Assembly (NCBI GenBank): GCA_025267735.1 | Contig: CM046301.1 | Span: 15,746,190-15,810,189, forward strand | Source of the DNA: Mactra quadrangularis | Lineage: Eukaryota > Mollusca > Bivalvia > Venerida > Mactridae | Length of the DNA: 64,000 nt | Direction of reading: 5' to 3' | The notes under the pieces: model-generated | The model's database searches: none | What the model saw: the letters and a program-made list of their open reading frames with translations, nothing else | Told to the model about the DNA's origin: nothing | Made by a program: the position numbers and the translations under genes | Shown here: one piece after another, positions 614 through 54,200 of the stretch | Layout: every line of letters begins with the position of its first letter | Numbering within the stretch: position 1 is the first letter of the stretch

Positions 614-1520
614 CTCATACATTATTGATATTGTTGACAAACAATTTACCTTGGGTTATCGAGGATGTTCGGTAGCTCGATCGATGATACTCTAATTCGT
701 ATGAATAAATATTTAATAAATAATTATGTGTCATAGCTGTACGCGCTGAGCTACCATTTCGGACTTCTTGCTCTATAACGCAGCCATTTTTTCGCTATAC
801 ATTATATTGGAGCAACATGTATAAATCATTCATTTATAAGAGTATAGTAAACATTGTCCTAGTTAAAGTCGAAAGAGCAAAAATATTTAATCAAGTTTTA
901 CCAAAGACATCGTGAAATAGCCAGGTCACTTTTATATATACATGTACAAGTATATAGATTATATGAACAGTATAGTATCGTCAAGATATGCGGTCGGATA
1001 ACTGAGGTTAAACTGTTCCTTAGACAGGAAACAAAATCGATTGTTAATGCTTAATTTTACGAAATAACCCATGAAATAAAAATTATCTTCCTGTAAAATA
1101 GCGTTAATATCACTTTTTCATCTTGCCAATCAAATTTTACCTCAATATTTGAGTGACTATATATAATATCTAATTTTAGAATATGATTCATTGTATATCC
1201 TATCCAAGTCAATACAGAACACGTCGACAGTGTTAACGTTTTATGTTTACATTTTATATAGTCCCCTTGATCGATCTTTACTTTAGTTGTGAAATATATT
1301 AGTTAAAGTAAAGATATTTAATGATCCTAATGTCTATTTTACAGTAAAAGGAAAAAAATTAAATAGTATTTAAATCAAAGTTTTACAGTGATAGGACCGA
1401 TCTGTTTCGTCTTTAGTTTAGTTTTATATTAAGTTTATATTATAATAACTTGTTGAGTTCAACTTTTAATTTAATTTTAATAAGAAATAACCGTAGAACT
1501 TTATTTACATATTTGAAAAA
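614..1520. other. 5' flank of the Rab gene, no gene seen
   Basis: AT-rich sequence between the tandem repeat and the first Rab coding exon. It must hold the promoter and 5' leader of the + strand gene, but no convincing TATA box or initiator can be singled out, and no coding similarity was recognised. Confidence 0.4.
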
Positions 1521-5617
<4,097 letters not shown>

Positions 5618-6338
5618 ATATGTTCTTGTATAATAGCCCCATTGATGTGGTGTTTACCACATAGGACATGAAATTACAGTCAATTTCATGACACTGCGTA
5701 AAATAAGTTGTTTCCTTAGAATGAAAGTTAAGATTTTGTTCTGCTGATTTTGTCTATTATAGTAATAGCTTGTTCATATTGACCTGAGACAGATTATTAC
5801 ATTTAACATGCTACATTAACTATTGTCAAATTTTATTCAAACATCAGTGACATATACATTAACCCTGCTGATTTATATACATGTACTGTATTTTATAATC
5901 CCCATACATAAATAGAGGTATCTATCTTTATTGACTGCGGGTACAGAAGTATTGTAGTGTGAATTATTTAAATAAGTGGGATTAATAAGTTGAATTGACA
6001 TTCAATAAAATTTGAAATACACTACCATGAACTGATATAATGTGCAATTATATTTAAATTATCTTCTTTGTCTCAGGTCAACTTTTACAAGCTATATACT
6101 AATATATCTATGTAGAAAACAAAATACTACATTTTTGGGATCTACCCAACTTATTCCATTTTAAAGGTAACAACTTGTTTTGTTTAAACAATAAACAAAG
6201 TGCCATGAAATAATGTATAGTGTTACATTAGAGACAAAATCAAAATGATCATGCCACGTCCCTGTTTATAAATTTAAATGTACAAGATTCCTAATTAATC
6301 ATTCATTAGACTGAGAGATGCATATTACATGTTGGCAA

Positions 6339-6404
6339 GAATTCAGCTTGACGGATCTAAAATAAACATTTGACAAAAATGCTTTTAGATCCTGAATAAA
6401 ATTC
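6339..6404 (+). promoter_or_regulatory. SECIS-like hairpin 1 (type II layout)
   Basis: Lower helix GAATT (6339) pairs with AATTC (6400). An AGC loop is followed by the quartet TTGA (6348) facing TGA (6393). Helix II GGATCTAAAA (6353-6362) pairs perfectly with TTTTAGATCC (6383-6392). Unpaired AAA sits at 6364-6366, then a mini-stem CATTT/AAATG. The order quartet, about 12 nt, AAA, mini-stem, 3' GA matches the known type II SECIS architecture that recruits SBP2 for UGA-to-selenocysteine recoding. The first quartet base is T rather than A. Function is inferred. Confidence 0.6.
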
Positions 6405-6764
6405 CTCTGTTGGCAAGTATTGCAATATTTCAGTCTAAAACATAGTGTCCTCCATAAGTTTTTCAACAAAATTGTGTTTTGTAAGATAAACTGTGATACC
6501 TTTACCCATAAAAGGTAACAAAGACTTATCTGAGCAAATACCACAATCAGCATTAAATAGTTTATCAACAAATGGTGCATATTCTGTTACATAAGTAATC
6601 TGAAATTACTTGTGATGAGCATGACCACTATTTTCAAAATTTCATTTTTTCAAGACCTCTTGGAGAGCATTTTACATCAAAACGATGTATTAACATGTGG
6701 TTGTAATTTGTAAATATAGGTAGTTTAGTGACTACTGTATTATAAATGTCATACGAGTTGGCAT

Positions 6765-6831
6765 GAATTCAGCATGACAGATTTGAATTAAATGTTTGTT
6801 ACAAAAATATTTCAAATCTTGAATAGAATTC
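6765..6831 (+). promoter_or_regulatory. SECIS-like hairpin 2 (type II layout)
   Basis: Lower helix GAATTC (6765-6770) pairs with GAATTC (6826-6831). The quartet is ATGA (6774-6777) opposite TGA (6820-6822). Helix II AGATTTGAA (6779-6787) pairs with TTCAAATCT (6811-6819). Unpaired AAA is at 6790-6792, then an imperfect mini-stem with a GTTAC loop. Flanks GAATTCAGC and TGAATAGAATTCC are shared with copies 1, 3 and 4, but the helix II sequence differs with both strands changed together. Confidence 0.65.
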
Positions 6832-6931
6832 CTCTGTTGATTGGTTCATATTTAATAAAAGTGTGTATGATTTATTGTAAATAAACAGCTACAGGGATAT
6901 TAGTGTAGTAAAATTGTTGCAAAGTTGACAT

Positions 6932-6994
6932 AAATTCAGCATGACAGTTTCAAAGAAAACATTTAGACATGTCTTTGAAACTTGAATAGAATAT
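6932..6994 (+). promoter_or_regulatory. SECIS-like hairpin 3 (type II layout)
   Basis: Lower helix AAATTC (6932) pairs with GAATAT (6989) with one mismatch. The quartet is ATGA (6941-6944) opposite TGA (6983-6985). Helix II AGTTTCAAAG (6946-6955) pairs perfectly with CTTTGAAACT (6973-6982). AAA is at 6956-6958, then a mini-stem ACAT/ATGT. Tandem sheared G·A pairs are expected between the ATGA and TGA strands, as in SECIS and other kink-turn-like RNAs. Confidence 0.65.
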
Positions 6995-7152
6995 CTAAAT
7001 CAGCTTTGATCAACCATTACCACATACATGTATATGTTTTTATAAATGATTACATTTGCCAAAGACACTGTGGTGTCAAAACACTGTTGCTGAAGAAGAT
7101 GGAAGCAAAATAAGTTTTGATCAAATCTAGATTAAATATTTTATAATGGCAC

Positions 7153-7211
7153 GAATTCAGCATGAAGGATTTCAAGTTTTTGAAAAACGCTTTCAATCTA
7201 GAGTAGAGTTC
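7153..7211 (+). promoter_or_regulatory. SECIS-like hairpin 4 (degenerate)
   Basis: Shares GAATTCAGCATGA (7153-7165) and the 3' flank GAGTTCCTCTGT with the other copies. The 3' strand has AGA (7200-7202) where the others have TGA, so the G·A tandem can still form. Helix II is weaker (GATT/AATC and AAG/CTT around an internal mismatch) and no AAA is seen on the 5' side of the apical loop. It looks like a decayed copy. Confidence 0.4.
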
Positions 7212-7428
7212 CTCTGTCAATTCATTATATTATGTGATTATGTGTAAGACACACATGTATTCTATTTTAAAAATGTCACTCTCATATAAGTTTACACAAA
7301 AACTTATGAATAATTTTTCTACTTTAACTGCTAGTGCAATATATCTGTATGTAAATATTCTTGTTTTATGTTTTATAAATATTCCACGATAACATTGCTG
7401 TGATATTTGTATTGTTATATATTTCAAT

Positions 7429-7434
7429 AATAAA
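7429..7434 (+). terminator. Poly(A) signal of the Rab gene
   Basis: AATAAA followed after about 20 bp by a T-run (from about 7458), placing cleavage near 7450. It is the last consensus signal before the convergent FCF1 gene. Confidence 0.5.
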
Positions 7435-7473
7435 ATATTAAAAATTAAAGATGCATTGTTTTTTTTAGATAAC

Positions 7474-7479
7474 TTTATT
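7474..7479 (-). terminator. Poly(A) signal of FCF1
   Basis: TTTATT on + (AATAAA on -), 338 nt beyond the FCF1 stop codon. Its expected cleavage site lies within a few tens of bases of that of the convergent Rab gene. Confidence 0.45.
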
Positions 7480-7816: not shown

Positions 7817-10800
7817 CTATGTCTTAGGAGCGCCATATGCATCTGGCATCCTCTCTATAGAGTATCTGAAATACAAAAAAAAAATGGACATTGAAAATCT
7901 TGGAATAATATGAGCATGAACTAATATTTTATATTGATAATATAAAGAAATAAAAAGCACAATTTCAACTACATTGAATTCCATCCATTCTTAAAATTTG
8001 ATCGATGCTCACTGATGGCAAGTAAGCTATGGTAGGTTTAAAATGAAAATCAATATTTCAAATACTTATGCTATAAACAACATAACTCATTATCCCATTA
8101 TTTAAAGACCCTTCTTTTGTCTAAAAAGACTTATAATTGTTGTTATAGTAGTAGTGGCTTATTCCTGTTCTTAACCTGTCTTGTTCTGTCCACTCTTTAG
8201 GATGCATTATGTGCAGACCCCGGCCAGATCTATACATTATACTTAAAATTTGTTTTAGAGTAGCCATACTTGGAAGAAATTCTTCCTCAGCTGGTCTTCT
8301 TAGTTTACAGCAATGATGATCACCCTCTCCATTTTTTAACCTTGTTTGGGTCTGGCAATGATTTATATGATAACTATTACCACAGGTATTTCAATATTTT
8401 GATACCTCGAACCAGTGGTCAGAGAACACAGGTTGGACTGTAATACAGTAGTACCTACCTACGACTTTGTATATACATAACTGGTACACCTGGTATTTTT
8501 CTGATTCTTCTTTTTAGATCTTTGTCACTAGTAGCAACAATATAACATTTATGCTGAAATGATAACATAAGTTCAAAGTAAATGTCACTAAATATCTTCT
8601 GTGGCACAACACAAAGGTCATAACTCCAGTAAACCAAGTAGATAGGCCTAGTTGTTAATCTCATTTGAGATATGTACCCCTTGCAATAAAATGTGAGTCA
8701 ATTTAACCTAAACAGTAAAGGATTTTCCCCAGATAATTTTTACTTTGATTTAAAATTAAACATATTTCTTATTCAGATATCAGGATGAAAATTTACTGGT
8801 GTAATGCCTAAGTGTGAATCTACTTTTGTTAAAAATTTCGAAGAAGCCAGATGAAAAATAAAAATTTAGTTTGCAAGATTTCAGGATCCGCAAACATATT
8901 CAGAACAGTGTTATTACGAGGGCACTGATGATAATAAATTTTCACTGATATTTGTGATGTAAAACTAAGAAAATAAATACCTGCATAATTCTCTGTACAA
9001 TACAATCATCAGCATAAGTTCCTTTATGAAAACATGGTAATCTTTGAAACCTATCATCACGGGCTATCCTGTTGAAAAATATATATCAAATTTATACATT
9101 GTAGTTTAACTTTCTTAAGCTTGACTGAGAAACACAATCTTACAACTTATGATAAGAGCTCGACACAAAATGTCTTCCTATTGCCCCTGACAACATACAT
9201 TGTATAGCTGGTTGTCCAACCGGAAAATAAGTGACAAACCTAAATATTAATCGTTCTTGTAAGGCCTACTTTTTAGTCAGATAAGTCTAAAGATTCTAAG
9301 CAAAAACTTTCTAGCTCAAGGAAAAAAGCAGGTTTTTTTCAGGTTCACCTAAAATTTACCAGTCCAATGTTACATTGCTCAACCTTGCTCAATCTACAGT
9401 TAGACTTAATTCACACATGGCTAACAAACCAAAAAAATTTTTTTCTAACAGTTAAATGGTAAATAGTTTTAGGCATCTACAGTGACGTGAACAAATCATC
9501 AACTAATTCTAGATTAAAATGCCTCTATACAAAATCATTGCCAATTAACAGAAATCATAACTATTGTCATGTACCATGATCCACCCTAATTATCACCTAT
9601 CTTTTCTCTTTCTCTACAAGCCCTGTTTACTCCTTCCTATATATAAATAATTTTAGTAAAACCTGCATCTCAATGAAGCACTCCGTGGGGTTTTTTGTTC
9701 CCCTCTGAATTTTTTTAAGTTCCAATAAAAATACATAAAAAAGGACATAGCTGTCATATTAAACAACAATATGTCATAAGTAATAGAAATGAAAGTAATT
9801 TATCTTACCTCAAAGCAACTCTGTATTTTGCACCCAATTTTTCAAGTTCAGCTAGAACACAGTCAGTTATATATGGAATACCTAAAATGAAAAAACAACA
9901 ACATTTAACCCTGAAGTTTGCTAGTTTTGTTCTACACACTGTTTCTAAAGTTAGAGTTATATGCTAGAAACTGTTCACCCAACCATGATTCTTTAAATGC
10001 ACTGGTACTAAACTCTCCATCCTTAGTGATTTACTGTCAAATGTCTCATATAAAGAGCCAAAGTCAGTTACTGGACAATAAGCATATATCTTCCATCAGT
10101 GTGAGAGGTTTGTTTGTTTGTTTGGGTTTTACAGCACACCAACACAGAAAGGTTATATAGCGCAGAGTGTGAGAGGTACAGTAATTTGAAGTCAAAAACA
10201 GAACCAGTTGACCCCAGTTTTCTTAAATTAACATTTTAAATAAACTGTAAACTATTAATGATACTAGACTAGCTTCATTTTCTTTCATACTACCTTGAAT
10301 TTGCTTGATATACAATTGTAAACATACAGATTGTACAGTTATAGTTTGTTTGTTTGTTTTTTGTTGGGTTTAACGCCATAGCAATGCATTGTATAGGTCA
10401 TATAACGGCGGTCAGTCAACCTACTCACTTCTCCTGGAAAGGCTAAATCAAGTTAACCAACTACTAAGCACATACTTTTGTCAGTGACTGACAACTGCCC
10501 TACATAATTAAGAATCATTACATAGTGATTTTTCTAAAGCAGAATAGCAGGGCGCCGCGCCCTGCCCTTTTTTAGCCCCGCCCTGCTGCCCTAATAGTCC
10601 CGCCCTGCGAGTGTCAAAGCGCCCTGTTGCCCTTTATTTTCCTTAAAAAATATTTTCATAATTGTCAATCATCGGTAAATTCACACGTCAATTGTATAAT
10701 CTTTATCAATCAGTAATTAAATGACACGCCTACTGTGAAAGGGCAGTGTCAAAAATCAATAAGGTGGTTGTTAGGGTATGCCTGTAACACGCTTGACAAC

Positions 10801-19505: not shown

Positions 19506-26032
<6,527 letters not shown>

Positions 26033-46014: not shown

Positions 46015-46510
46015 AGTGTCTGTAGCGTCGCTAAACGTCGCAATTGACTTTAAACGTCACAACAACTTAGGACCTAATGGACTTAAATATACATTAAAAC
46101 GGTTAATTAGCACATTAGACATTCTCGTTCCCAGAGTCTAGTAGGATTCTCAATACTAACTAGTATTGAGAATCCTACTAGACTCTGGGAACGAGAATGC
46201 ACATTAGAGAGTCTGCTATAGACCTTAGGGTGGTTGCTATGGATATGTGGTCGTTGTTATGCGTCTAAGGATCGTTGCTTTTATGTCAAATTTGTTCTTA
46301 GTAATTCTTTTGACATGTCTAGGCTTGAAACTAAACATTTCTACTAGTGCGACGTTTGAGGCATTATGCGTAAGTCGATTATTGTGCGAGGTTTATCATC
46401 AGCGTTGCGACATTTATCCTCAGGACAATTGCGAGGTTTAGCGTTGGTTGCGACATTTAGCGTCAGTGATGCGACGTTTAGCGTCAATAGCGACGTTTAC
46501 TGGCGGTGGG
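46015..46510. repeat. GCGACGTTTAGCG repeat block with inverted flanks
   Basis: The left part (46023-46060) has AGCGTCGCTAAACGTCGC. The right part (46370-46500) has four to five copies of GCGACATTTAGCGTCA-like words in the opposite orientation, and GACCTTAG/CTAAGG words also mirror each other. It may be an old fold-back element; the perfect palindrome at 46120-46199 is inserted in it. Confidence 0.5.
46120..46199. mobile_element. 80-bp perfect palindrome with 9-bp target duplication
   Basis: Arms 46120-46158 and 46161-46199 are perfect reverse complements over 39 bp around a 2-nt centre. CACATTAGA lies directly on both sides (46111-46119 and 46200-46208), the signature of an inserted element. 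Ends CATTCTCGTTCCCAGAG match the fold-back family at 24241 and 41067. No coding capacity. Confidence 0.85.
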
Positions 46511-48294
46511 AAGTAGTGCTAGTGCTGCAGACTAAATGACGATTCAAGTCAAACGTTATCAATGAGATGACGTCAGAATGCCTCCAATCGTAGGTTTAAC
46601 ATTATTTTATCGTGTTCTTCAGTAAAGAAAACATATTTTTTTTAAATCGATCTCATTTTTAAACTGATATCGATCACCCGCTGATTTTTCTATGTATTTT
46701 TATATAGTAAAATAATCTTTTATAAATGTCAAAGGTTGGCATTATCGTTTTGTTTTACAGGAAATCTTGAAAACGCTACAGGAAGTGCCTCTACAACATA
46801 GTTTGCTTTAGTAGAAAATAAAAAACCTTAGGCAAACTTTACTTATGAATGCAGGACCCGGGCAATGACCGCTCGAACATTTTTCAAAACCATGGTTAAA
46901 GTTTATAAAACCGAAACAAATTGTTGTCCTAGTTTATCGACTGCACCCCCATCCTCACTTGTGAGGATTCTTGATACGCAACTGGCTTGTATTTTCTTGA
47001 TAATGTGAGAAATCGAAGATATGGCATGCAACTATTGTACTATATATAAAAAGACTAGTTTTATATATCATGATCTCTCATAGAATTGAATAGTATCTTT
47101 TATAAAACTGAAAATGACTTGTAAAATGGTAGTATTGTGTTGCTTATACTTAACCCTTAGGTTAGAACTTAAGAAAGCTTTGATGGTTTTATTTTGCAAT
47201 GGTAATGTACTGTGATGTGGGTAATCAAACAATGATCATTTGTTATTTATGATTGAATGCAAAGTATCATTTACCTTTGTTATACTAAATACTGGGGTAG
47301 TATTAAACAATTTGTTATAATGAACATAGTTTTTCCCACGTAAGCTGATCATTAAAACACGATATATATTGACTAAGATGTACTTGTTCATTATTAAAGC
47401 TTACCTTTTTGTGATGTAGGCTCGCTTATAATTACTACAAATGTATTTTGAATAAACAAAAGGAAGAAAAACACAGTTCATTGTTCGATCGGCAACTGAA
47501 ATTTTAATTTCTCATTCACAGCGAAAACTTGGAATCAATTCACGATTCGGATTAAGCTGACTTGACGTTTGTCAGCTGCTGCTTCTGCTGAGACGCGGAG
47601 TGTCGTCTGCTTTTTAAAATATTCAACAAAAACAACAATATTTTGTTTTGCGGTGAATGAACGCTTGAGCTTTAAATTCAACCATATTTAAACAAAGACT
47701 ATTTAGTATTACTAACAATGCGTTAAGAATTGAGGAGAGTAAGTGTGGTTGAGATGTATTGTTAAGATAAAGGATTTTCTACTTCCGGTAGAAGGGTTCA
47801 ATGTATCCTTCCTTCCTGATTTATCGATAACCAGTCAGCCGAGAGAGTTTATACTGTGAACGTTGTTTGTTACAGTCAGCGTTCAAGAGAGATTCGTTGA
47901 CATTTGGTTGTTATTGTTTATATAAAAGAAGTGAAATGTCGGATAGTTGTTTTAGTTAATAACTCGCATAGTAGCAATACTTAACTGAATAGTTTAAACG
48001 ATTATTTGCGAACCTGTTGAAGTGAGGAGTGCACGTGCGTGGAATATGTATTTATGAATTAGTGGTATATTTTTATTAGGTAATAAAATTATGCTTCGAT
48101 AGTTGCTACGGTGGGAGAGTTCGCGAGTTTTGTTGTAATTATATTTGAATGATTATTCTCAGCAGATATTAGTTGCAGAAACATTCTTGTAATATGACCA
48201 GTGTGGATTGGAAGAAAAGGAGAGTGTTTAGTTAGTTATAGTTAATTTTGTTTAAATATCCGGTGAAAATTATTAAAAACTTCAAATTTCACGT
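46511..48294. other. 5' flank and leader of the Rho-family gene
   Basis: No coding exon recognised upstream of the ATG at 48295. The promoter and leader must lie here or nearby. Sequence is AT-rich; several upstream ATGs occur, none with a long frame. Confidence 0.4.
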
Positions 48295-51200
48295 ATGTCG
48301 AGTATAAAACAAAAATACACCAGGATGAAGCGAAAATATGAATTCAGAGACAAAAGAAGCTCGTGTATAAAATGTGTGATTGTTGGGGACGCTGGTGTGG
48401 GAAAGTCTAGCCTGGCGGCTAGGTTATCTTCAAGAAAATTCAAAGATGAATACATTCCGACGATATTTGATAATTACGCAGGTAATGTATAATGTATTTA
48501 CGAATACTCGGCGTAGGTGGTTCTAACCGTCTGCGATGAAATCAGATATTGGTGAATATTGAATTAATTTTATCATTTAGATTTTCCATATGTTTTATTG
48601 GTAAAATATTTTAATCCATATACTCTGATTAATCTAATGGAAATTCTGGTTGATGCCATTAATGTAGTTGTTCACCATTGCAATGTAGACAATGTCAATT
48701 TGAAGTTGATAACTGTAGGTGAAGCTATTGTATTGAGAGGGTATCATATTATGTGGAATATTTCTTATGGTAGTTTATTTTCTCTCCCCTATGAATGTAC
48801 CCAGTAACATTGTTACAGTATAAGGGGAGGGGGAAACTATTTTTTGATAGCGTTTCATTTCATTGTCATTATTATATTTTGTTATATAATTATGCGGGGG
48901 TATTTTCTCTTGAATGTGCCTGAGTAACATGGTTTACTTTAAAGTCAAGATTGGAGTATTTTGTTAGATAAGGGGATTTTAATGTTTATTAGTTTCCGAA
49001 GCGAGAGTGACAGTTTCTATGTCCTATGCGCGGCTCAATTCAAGCCCGTGTTGGTCGCGCTTGGGATCGAACCCTTCTGACAGTCTGGGCATACGCCAGG
49101 CGTGGAGCTAGTAAAAATTGATTTCGACGAGTGAAACTCATTTTATTTATACTACTATAAGACATATAAAGTCGAAATTATAATGACTAAGACAATGGCG
49201 CTCTCTTCAAACCAAAAACCAAATCAAAGATTATCAATTACAGATCTTTTAGGGCTATTGGAGTCAAGCAGAACGGTGTACGTCTCGATATACTAAAGCC
49301 ATTATATCTTTAGTGGATCGGGGCCGTGCCGGTCGCCAGTGAATATATAAATTTGTATAATTATGATTACAGTATTGCTTATGTAACAGGAAGATCGAAC
49401 ATAGTTTCTCTCAAGTATTTGGAAATAATTTTAACTGCTATAATTAATCACCCAATACAATATACAGTATAATTGTAACTACAAGTAAAAATGGTTAAAA
49501 GACTAGACCATGATGTATAATTGATTCAGTATCGTTCGATGCCAAAATACAAACTTAACACCATGGCTGTCTTAATGATGTATTATTCATTCTATTATTC
49601 ATCGACTAATGTCTGTGTGAGTAGTCCGTCTTGACACTTAACTAAGGTCATGGTATAGTTAGAATTCTTGTTTAGTTTTAGGTCGGTAGAATTTGTTTTA
49701 AATTCAGGCAATACGGAATAGAATTGACTATAGAGACTCGATTTAAAATTGTCTGAAATAAAGACCAGTTTATACTGAGAAGTTAGTCCACCTCTGTCAC
49801 TAATTGAAAGGCCGTAATTTTAAATGTGTCCGATCATTAGTTGTTTCCAGCATTTGAATATCAAAAGGGTTCAAGAAAATTGAAGGGCGTTGTTTTAATT
49901 CAGTCAACGTTGAGCAGCAACATTTTTTCCCCGCTCGGTAAGCCCAATCGATGTAATTTCTGATTTCATTGCTCCAATTCGTCGAGGGGGTTAAATGAAT
50001 TCATTTCTTTTCCTATTCTCCCTCCCTCGAGCTCCGCTGTATCAAGTGGGTTTTGGCGATTAGTACTTAGTACTGACTGGTTTAAAGGGTTAGGCTATAC
50101 AGGTTAAGACATCTGAGCATTTTTGGAGACAGTTAATATACAAACCGTCTTTTCTAAAACAAATGTTAAAAGATCTACGTAAATAACAATGCAGCATGAG
50201 CTATCTTCATAAAATTTACTATAATTTTGCTCATATAGTAATTAAACCAAATAAACATTGTAAAAATGTATATAATGTGAAATCATTGTATTTTATACAT
50301 GAATGTGTTTCTATACAAACCGATTCTAGGATTGTCGGTGAAATCACTCTATTGTTATCAATGAATGAATGTGTCGTCTGCACTGTGTGTGCACATCGTC
50401 TCCTCATAATTATCACCATGACGACCTTGCACTTACTTTACTTGTCAGTAGTTTATCAAAAAGTGAGTACAAAATAATTCATTTTACGGAGAATGAAAAT
50501 ATACGATGTGCAACCAGGTACATACATGTGACAGTTAGATGGCATGTCGGCTGCACCCACTTTTTGCGGGAATCATCAATAAAATTAACATACAAGACAG
50601 GCGATTAACAGCGTGCTGTTAAGATGAATGTGTGAGGGAGAGAGAAAAGGAGAAAATGAGAGAAACTGGAAATGTGGTATAATCATCAATGAAATGGTAA
50701 ATACTTGATGTGAAAACAAATGTGAGTCATACAGTTGTCTAACATCAATGAAAATCAATGAGAAGTAGGTGCAGTTCGTTTTCTAGCAGAAAACAAGAAA
50801 ATTCACTGATACGTTATGTTTTCTAATAGTTTTCCTCTCTATTGACTAAGAGGTGAAAAAACAAATTAGAATATGTTCGGTTGTCATTCGGAAACATTCG
50901 TCATTTTCCGTTGATTATTTAGAAATTACCGTGAAATTAAAGATAAATATGCCTATTACAATATAAATAAAGAAAATGTAAAAAACTGAAAAAAGCTTAC
51001 TGTATATAATACAGTATATGCACTCGCAACATTTCTGACTTTTCCGTAAAATTACCAAATCGTTGTTACGACATACATGTATGCTATGTATGTACATGTA
51101 TTTAGAAATTCAAGTAAATTGGAAAAACAGCACTCGCGCCGCAATCTTTATTATACTTGACAATGTCAATTAGATCTACCTGAAAATATACATTTTTATT

Positions 51201-54200
51201 TTGACAAACCCTATCGAGATTAGAATGCTATCGTCGAGGTGTTCCGAATTATTCAAATTTTGTATCTATCTCACTTCGGCTTATTTCGGAAAATACGGAC
51301 GGAAATTCCCGACGTAATACGATTAAATTTATGATACAGAATATCATTTTATTCACCAGCTGCAGACATCAAGAGAGAAAATATTCATCGTAAAAGATAC
51401 AGGATTATGATATTTTGCTGCAGTTGGCAATATTTTATGCTAACTTACATCTGTTATTGCTAATTACGCCTGGTAACTGAGAACCGTCTTCAATATTTCC
51501 GCAATTAACATCATTTTGAATAAAATAAAATTATATTTTTGAAATATATAAACAATAACATATTTCTGCGTTTTAAGGTGGTCTGTTTTCTAATATTACT
51601 TTTTGAATTTATTGATTTTTTTTGTAAAATTGCTTAGATTGATTTGAAACTACGAAGAGGGAACGGGGGGGCATCATTGAGAAACATAAAACTTATTTCT
51701 GTGTAAACTACTTCTTCGCGCAGGTTGTTATTTAAAAAAGTGGAAAAACTGGGACGAGAGAAAATGGCATGTTTAAGCATATTACAATCTTTTTTACGCA
51801 ATTATTATATTATTACTGGAAAGGATTGGCCTCGCGTTTATGAATATTAATAACTAATGCACGGCAGTTGTTCGCAGCAATAGGACATAAAAGTATTGTA
51901 ACTTGTTTTGCTAAAATGCTTAGCTAACAAATACTCACTATATTTGATGTGCGAGTTATCTAATATAGATGCTGGGATATTTGTCTCTTGACAGAATGCA
52001 TTAATAAGTGCATATATGTTTGACAATACATTGTAATGTATTTAACTACATGTAGTTCACGGCTGTCAAATGTACCGTAACATACTAAGAGAGGCTGAAA
52101 CATTTCCTGGACGTTTTTATTGTTACATAAATTACAAATTGCACTCATATTTATAAATATTGTATGACCAATTATCTGGTTGTGTTCAGAAATGAAATAC
52201 ACTGGCTCAACAGTTACTGTGGGTAAACAACTTATACAAATAATGATGCAAATGTATATTGATGTCTTTTAAAAAAAAGTTATATTAGATGTATCTAAGA
52301 AAAATACATTTTTTTGTAATTTGAACGCACAACCAATGAATATGTATTAATTTTGAAACTTGAAATTTGTGTAATAGAATCCATCATTTACAGATTCGTG
52401 CCCTTTAAAAATAGTAACATAATGCCATAGATACGTTGTAAAGGCGCAGTTTAAAAAAGAACAATGAAACAAAATCCTGGAATGCAGCAGCGCACTTTGT
52501 CTTTATATCAGAATGGCTGGGATCTTGTTGTGTGCAGCTCGCATTTTAGGACACGGATACGGATTTCTTTAGAAGTGGGTGAATGATCTAGAACAAAATG
52601 TATGGTTACATCAATACATGGCTGCATTGTGTTAGTAAATCTGACACTGTACCATAAATGTGTGAAGTTAGTCCTATTGTCTAACGGAAATGTATATTAA
52701 TATCCGGGTTAGCTCATCTGCCGCACTTGTTGACCTACACAATGAACTCTATCAGGTTTGTCCATTGTTTCAAATTGCGGAAATTGTCGAGTAGTAACAA
52801 TTGGGTAATTAACTATCATTCGGAACACCATCTATTAGCAGAAAAACTGTCCATTATATGTTTTTGCGTAGAAAAAAAAACGCCGAAGAGTTCAGAATAG
52901 CCAATTATGAGTGACCGCTCTGCAATTTTCGTAACCCGATTGAGTCTATATACTAATCATGATGTTCATATGCGTTATATGCGAGGACGATGATAATATT
53001 CTTTAAGGGACCACATCTTCTTGTCTAAAAGATGGCCAAGACCGACGACGAACTATGTTAACACAAATGCTGAAACTACTAATTGTTAACTATTTCCAAT
53101 ACCCAGATGAGGCACTAAAATGAATATTTATCAGATGTATTTCAATATTTTGTTTCTATTTTCAGCGACTGTGATGTTGGACGAAAAACCATTCCATTTT
53201 AGCCTTTTTGATACTGCTGGCAAGGTATGTATTTAATGATAAAATTAGTTTAGATTAGGAGCAGAAGTCCGATGGAAGAAAGTGCGTTTTTGGACTTAGC
53301 TTTTCCGAGATCGAACCCTTTTAAATATAGTGGAACTGCGGATTGCACTGAGCCATTAATTTACCTGTGATTGCTTCATTCCACCCAGGTGATATTGGGT
53401 TCATCGAGGGTGATAAAATTTGTTAAGCCATAGTGCTGACAAAGACTCCCGGTGACTGATAAATACACATATAGATACATTTGTACCAGTAGTCTAATGG
53501 CCGAGAATAACAGCTGCATGGTCATTAAACATGCATCAGCATGGATTCTAGTCTATAAATTGATTCAATGCTAGAATTAAAGAACAAAAATCGTCACAAA
53601 AGCATTCTAATACAGTTGGCATAAAGACTTGTGAGAAAAAAAAACCGCTAAGTAGTTTCATATGAATGTAATATAACGCGCACGTGCTAGAAAATTTGCA
53701 ATAATTATTTCAAAGACAATTCTTATCATTCCTATATCTTATTTTCACTTAATTTTCTTGGGAAGTAATAAATTAAATAACATTCAATGTAATAGTATGA
53801 ATGTAGATATTAGCAGAAGATTATAAAACGTCAATATTTACATCATTTGGTGCTTGTTATAAGAAAGACACGTGTGAATTCTGGAATATCGTAATGTCTA
53901 GGGACTTATTATTGATGTTGCAGTTAATATGATATACGAAATGTTCCTCACGTTTGATGTGGTTATCTTTTATAGTCAGAAAATGAGGAAAACACGCTGA
54001 AGATGTGAACATGTTAATATTGCTGATTTGATAATTCTAACTAAATGCAATTTGTGTTATAACCAGTACAAAAATGTCATTTGGTTGAAATAATGAAATA
54101 AGACCACTAATGGCACTGCTTTAAGTTTTCTTATCTGAAATAAATGACAATAAAGGAATTGCTTCTGAATTGCTTTTAAAAATGATACTCTGAATTCAAA

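Follow-up and report, generated by a model that had tools for sequence, protein, structure and literature searches.

Four related hairpins of about 83 nt, S1 to S4, lie 0.7–1.6 kb downstream of the UGA stop codon of a Rab1-like GTPase gene in the window—the whole 64-kb stretch of DNA that was analysed (Table 1). Two of them, S2 and S3, are very probably SECIS-type RNA structures. No other locus examined carries the array. Its presence there would mean a new class of selenoprotein, a stop codon that serves as a selenium sensor, or a function for SECIS elements that involves no recoding at all.

Table 1. Positions in the window of the Rab gene, the hairpins and neighbouring features
Feature	Position	Strand	Remarks
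Rab1-like GTPase gene	1521..5617	+	Seven exons, 214 aa; C-terminus NMCTC, then UGA
Rab exons	1521-1561, 2216-2288, 2820-2867, 3071-3118, 3530-3625, 4590-4721, 5411-5617	+	
Rab UGA stop, proposed recoding site	5615..5617	+	No other UGA in frame
Possible 27-codon extension, ICSCIIAPLMWCLPHRT-U-NYSQFHDTA	5618..5701	+	Second UGA 5669-5671; UAA 5699-5701
Stem-loops after the stop	5645-5662 (7 bp), 5667-5690 (9 bp)	+	From the predicted fold
S1	6325..6425	+	SECIS-like hairpin; UUGA core, AAA, mini-stem; no SECIS_1 match
S2	6751..6851	+	Form-2 SECIS-like; AUGA core, AAA, mini-stem; RF00031 24.1 bits at 6766-6830
S3	6918..7010	+	Form-2 SECIS-like; AUGA core, AAA, mini-stem; RF00031 26.7 bits at 6933-6993
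S4	7139..7230	+	Related hairpin; apical AAA and mini-stem absent; two helix II mismatches
AATAAA	7429..7434	+	The + transcript likely ends here
Further AATAAA	6004, 6190, 6361, 6395, 6854, 6880	+	6361 and 6395 inside S1
FCF1, C-terminal exons	7817..9881	-	PF04900, 3.4e-32; four exons joined by hand
AATAAA on the FCF1 strand	7474-7479	-	

Pairing, core and apex of the hairpins

The original prediction listed four copies, and each was found in its place. The flanks it described as shared are exact in S2 and occur as variants in the others: AGCTTGAC and TGAATAAAATTCC in S1, AAATTCAGCATGAC and TGAATAGAATATC in S3, GAATTCAGCATGAA and AGAGTAGAGTTCC in S4. The helix arms it gave are correct. Its statement that the central helices 'differ completely' and still pair holds for the pairing but overstates the difference: four of the ten helix II pairs are invariant. 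Six of the ten have changed on both sides in at least one copy. Two further helices that the original prediction did not list, helix I beneath the core and an outer one, have also been kept, with two-sided change in one of six and two of eight pairs, respectively. Aligned over 102 columns, the copies pair in 90.5% of the 95 cells of the outer helix, helix I and helix II. Nine of the 24 pairs show two-sided change, a count reached by none of 500 shuffles and compared with 0–2 for slid versions of the structure; the comparison draws on four paralogous copies only, and since these also supplied the structure, the true version has an advantage over the slid ones.

Pairwise, the elements are 62–80% identical and exceed the 95% level of shuffles in all six copy pairs, while 10 of 12 comparisons of their 100-nt flanks fall below it. 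The exceptions are the downstream flanks of S3 and S4, which lie above the shuffle level (27 vs 20), and the upstream flanks of S1 and S2, which equal it (19). Folding energy alone leaves the strand undecided (z on the + strand: S1 -2.29, S2 -1.77, S3 -3.03, S4 -0.39; on the - strand: S1 -2.03, S2 -0.47, S3 -3.32, S4 -0.81); the core and the AAA motif point to the + strand. Selection on a + strand RNA structure, as had been proposed, is supported.

The proposed type II SECIS layout is borne out by the AUGA/GA core, helix II, the AAA and the mini-stem, and so is the finer claim that copies 1–3 have an AAA about 12 nt after the quartet, followed by a mini-stem; S4 has neither. Criteria for form-2 elements were taken from passages of PMC3328465 and PMC3316567. 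The non-Watson-Crick RUGA/GA core is complete in three of the four (AUGA and GA in S2, S3 and S4), S1 having UUGA and GA. Form-2 elements have three unpaired A (or C) near the apex, with an extra helix above; S1, S2 and S3 show this and S4 does not. They also have two helices, kept by compensatory change, around an internal loop of 4–18 nt, and the array agrees with this as far as its four paralogous copies go. Helix II comprises 9–10 pairs in S1–S3 and the mini-stem 4–5 bp; in S1 and S2 the TGA is followed at 12 nt by the AAA, and in S3 at 11–12 nt by a run of four adenines. S4 is likely decaying, a copy in the course of losing its function.

A search with a SECIS model, suggested earlier as a check, succeeded for two copies and failed for two. 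RF00031 (SECIS_1) aligns with S3 and S2 over its full length (1-64/64), core and AAA in register; it finds neither S4 nor S1, the latter not even in a 101-base stretch. Both scores, 26.7 bits for S3 and 24.1 for S2, fall short of the Rfam gathering cut-off of 35 bits, which is a curated threshold rather than a biological definition. The E-values of 0.018 (S3) and 0.087 (S2) apply to a search across 4227 families; for SECIS_1 alone in 1.9 kb they become about 4e-6 and 2e-5 by our own arithmetic, division by 4227. When the whole 64 kb was scanned at E up to 10, S3 was the only SECIS_1 match; S2 was lost there, so other elements could be lost too.

A strict scan for the form-2 layout finds S1, S2 and S3 in 5618-7440, against a mean of 0.011 matches in dinucleotide shuffles, none of 2000 of which had two or more, for a pattern tightened post hoc, once S1–S3 were known, and copies that are not independent. 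The first version of the scan, with a helix I of 5 bp, found S1, S2, 51613 (+) and 38906 (-) and missed S3 (shuffle mean 0.35 in 20 shuffles of the + strand). A relaxed version finds S1–S3, six + and three - matches in the window, and four matches in three of six flanks of glutathione peroxidase (GPx) genes. Outside the array, the strict scan picks out 47213-47252 (+), 51613-51662 (+) and 24157-24212 (-). Three such matches in about 126 kb of strand exceed the shuffle expectation (18 in 100 shuffles of the + strand); they are probably chance.

A model built from S1–S4, R1, scores the four copies at 81–103 bits. Elsewhere in the window it reaches at most 19.9 bits, and in eight loci picked by a 13-base pattern at most 20.5; none of the six GPx flanks or of eight loci with Rab paralogs goes beyond 9.3. 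As a DNA query against the 979-Mb genome, S2–S4 give two matches, both at this locus (S2–S4 itself and S1), in a search that skips very common words and yielded one candidate locus. RF00031 found nothing across the genome at E<=0.001 among the 150 of 22974 candidates that were scored, and detected none of 14 controls, so that this negative carries no weight. With one mismatch allowed, the 13-base pattern occurs 843 + 839 times in the genome, and its reversal 511 + 511 times. Three of its loci (L004, L005 and L006) match R1 weakly at the same place, 1417-1528 (-), with 18.3–20.5 bits; these are perhaps an unrelated repeat family.

The Rab gene, its stop codon and its transcript

The array was predicted to lie behind a Rab gene, and the gene is there. 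It has a start, a stop and GT/AG at all six introns of the spliced frame; exon 1 is the single match in a pattern search and resembles the Mactra N-terminus. The protein matches Pfam Ras (PF00071) at 7.7e-60. A Mactra antiquata protein is 86% identical over 66% of the query, and among the best 120 of 7982 matches a Mercenaria relative shows 64% identity over 100%, and one from Dreissena 69% over 83%. These relatives put the gene's owner among the bivalves, probably a clam, although Brassica and unnamed records stand beside them in the same best 120 of 7982, some with higher scores. The last exon alone, used as a protein query, found no match.

Seven relatives have an aligned C-terminus; an eighth, P0009, is incomplete at its end. 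Four of the seven end in CxC (P0003 NMCIC, P0004 NMCVC, P0005 and P0007), the others in DSC (P0012), in CCSWLRTR (P0017) or in a different, long Cys-rich tail (P0010). None of the seven has the tail that would follow the Rab stop. Because four of seven end in CxC, termination at the ordinary stop is probably ancestral and probably gives the main product. The 214 codons contain no UGA, the stop being the only one in frame, so this Rab does not count as an ordinary selenoprotein, which would have an in-frame UGA with conserved protein on both sides. A selenocysteine codon inside the Rab was rejected on the spliced frame.

Runs of at least 28 codons start at 17.6% of the positions in 5618-7440, so the openness of the 27-codon tail is no evidence; nor does any Pfam family match within the tail. 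The two stem-loops that follow the stop bring to mind a selenocysteine redefinition element. A structured stop context was rejected nonetheless, the region being no better folded than shuffles (z -1.17 for 5618-5720 and -0.60 for 5618-5700).

FCF1 converges on the Rab gene from the other strand, and the opposed AATAAA signals at 7474 (-) and 7429 (+) nearly meet. Because of this convergence and these poly(A) signals, the + strand to about 7440 is most simply the 3' UTR of the Rab, with S1–S4 on its mRNA. The presumed UTR also contains two dispersed repeats, one at 5821-5986 with about 30 listed copies, several matched on both strands, and one at about 6426-6679, between S1 and S2, with at least six. 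As a DNA query, 5618-7440 gave at least 58 matches, 40 of 1341 candidates being scored. Upstream of the gene, 438-675 holds short repeated coding-like frames with THGSYHRKLAVLTI-type units.

Rab1-like paralogs (L055-L062) form two clusters on the chromosome that carries the window's Rab, one on each strand (C9, 2.74–2.80 Mb and 9.96–10.02 Mb). Paralog L060 ends in GGGGCC, followed by a UAA or UAG stop, and L061 in CKCC, followed by UGA. A UGA stop is therefore not special to the window's Rab; R1 finds no match near that of L061. UGAs that seemed to lie inside exons of L055 and L058 were set aside: they directly follow the ...MMKV at which the open exon stops, and we read them as overrun past the splice donor. 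In L056 the apparent exonic UGA stands in an alignment row.

Recoding of the Rab stop and the alternatives

Selenoproteins are very likely made in this organism, because six of nine GPx loci have a catalytic UGA. The genome has 15 matches to PF00255, and nine GPx loci were read through; UGA occupies the catalytic position in L035-L038, L040 and L041, cysteine in L033, L034 and L039. RF00031, at E<=10, finds no SECIS in any of the six 3' flanks of the UGA-type loci (23 kb). The strict scan finds one match in each of two of these flanks, with AUGA, AAA and mini-stem, to which RF00031 lends no support in short stretches; RF00031 may be blind to the SECIS elements of this genome, or both matches may be chance. 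A search with PF10262 for more selenoproteins gave one match, on contig C23, without an internal stop. The cysteine-type GPx frames of L033 and L034 (contigs C128 and C126) are alike in the printed stretch, intron-free in the domain and bacterial in look, and are possibly on symbiont or contaminant contigs.

The reading we favour, at a probability of roughly 0.4, is that the SECIS layout of S1–S3 recruits the selenocysteine machinery, and that some of the ribosomes reaching the UGA stop of the Rab insert selenocysteine there. We favour it because SECIS elements act on an upstream in-frame UGA, and only the Rab stop qualifies; it is the most specific reading, and it fits the only UGA available. 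With S1–S4 on the Rab mRNA, as gene order and poly(A) signals suggest, SBP2, SBP2L or a similar SECIS-binding protein would bind the array, and the stop, as the only in-frame UGA, would be the target. Insertion of selenocysteine there would let translation run on through ICSCIIAPLMWCLPHRT to the second UGA at 5669 and, were that read too, end at the UAA. In the resulting protein CTC would be followed by selenocysteine and as many as 27 further residues, and would no longer be C-terminal. Several copies may raise efficiency; or alternative polyadenylation may give mRNAs with different numbers of SECIS elements, as the AATAAA at 6395, 6854 and 6880 would permit mRNAs with fewer copies.

Prenylation of Rabs requires C-terminal cysteines. 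A tailed Rab would for that reason not be geranylgeranylated at its C-terminus and would be soluble, and membrane attachment of the Rab could then vary with selenium supply. The full selenium switch—a tailed, soluble Rab with its CxC buried when selenium is present, a prenylated, membrane-bound Rab when it is not—is a step further, and we think it somewhat unlikely. The stop lies 732–1325 nt from the cores of S1–S3, which we count in favour of recoding. According to PMC3737529, the UGA of mammalian TR1 was functional only in or close to its native place, and that of TR3 at any position tested; because of this position dependence in TR1, recoding of the Rab stop is not to be assumed.

The hairpins might instead bind SBP2/SBP2L, or another kink-turn protein, and recode nothing, serving as a decoy for SECIS-binding proteins or to regulate how stable the Rab mRNA is, where it goes or how it is translated. 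We hold this unlikely. It suits a structure kept among copies behind a Rab that has no internal UGA, and a CxC end common to four of seven relatives, but the AAA at fixed distance and the mini-stem of S1–S3 exceed what a kink-turn comprises and fit SECIS recoding. According to a passage in PMC3328465, the apical SECIS motif is needed for selenocysteine incorporation.

It is unlikely, in our estimation, that the array serves a selenocysteine codon elsewhere, in an unrecognised alternative Rab exon or in another gene that overlaps on the + strand. It is true that a UGA is required for a SECIS to act on, and the Rab frame has only its stop; and with UGA read as sense a frame with three UGAs opens in the last intron, at 4982-5338. 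Neither that frame nor one at 261-695, with five UGAs, has a Pfam match up to E 1, however, and a hidden selenoprotein frame was rejected on that ground. FCF1 occupies the 3' side in the opposite direction, and 5618-6339 holds no convincing frame (>=45 aa, or >=80 codons with UGA read).

That the array is a relic, the SECIS-bearing 3' UTR of a former selenoprotein gene captured or duplicated and now drifting, is improbable. For it are an S4 that has lost its AAA and two helix II pairs, and the UUGA of S1; against it are two-sided changes that keep the pairing, and cores kept amid flanks at shuffle level, which speak for selection after duplication. The idea that a dispersed, MITE-like hairpin repeat inserted four times and resembles SECIS by chance can draw on the two dispersed repeats in the same 3' region and on the weak R1 matches of L004-L006, but it is largely refuted, and was rejected, since both repeats lie outside S1–S4, the copies score 81–103 bits with R1, and the S2–S4 query finds one locus instead of many.

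Comparison with known systems, and other features of the window

The elements resemble eukaryotic form-2 SECIS (RF00031) in their AUGA/GA core, a helix II of 9–10 bp, an AAA 11–12 nt after the TGA, the mini-stem, helix I and a position 3' of the coding region. They differ in forming a tandem array of three to four, in being AT-rich, in scoring below the Rfam gathering threshold and in adjoining a gene whose stop is its only in-frame UGA. We know of no earlier selenoprotein among the GTPases of vesicle traffic and of no 3' UTR with more than two SECIS elements; the selenium switch, if true, would supply the first of each.

The selenocysteine of thioredoxin reductase lies near the C-terminus. 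SelS likewise has a late UGA, selenocysteine being its penultimate residue (PMC3628699). In both, selenocysteine is part of the known protein, whereas most of the Rab relatives examined end before it. Recoding of the Rab stop would also resemble programmed stop codon readthrough, in which proteins are extended by decoding a stop as sense; the cases described in the abstract of PMC3840789 are from Drosophila and apparently do not work by SECIS. Selenoprotein P shares with the Rab the possession of more than one SECIS in one 3' UTR, but it has many in-frame UGAs and two elements, whereas the Rab has a single UGA as its stop, another within the tail, and as many as four elements. Alternative polyadenylation of human SelP changes the number of SECIS elements per mRNA, according to PMC5133445. 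The vertebrate survey of PMC3316567 reports that all eukaryotic selenoprotein genes contain a SECIS and that SelP alone has two. Among the open-licence papers listed, titles and opening lines of abstracts mention neither a Rab with a SECIS nor more than two SECIS elements in any natural 3' UTR; PMC1884150 mentions a Rab, unrelated to its SECIS, and PMC5323020 contains the words 'four SECIS'.

Elsewhere in the window, 46117-46202 is a palindromic hairpin whose two strands both match miRNA models (MIR1120 at 67.3 bits, below its cut-off of 86); it is likely an inverted-repeat element. Pfam Ras also matches at 19506-19967 (-) and 25267-25623 (-), Ras-superfamily exons that we take to be Rho/Rac-like, and 48367-48465 (+) matches the Rab in a tblastn search; the window hence holds several small GTPase genes.
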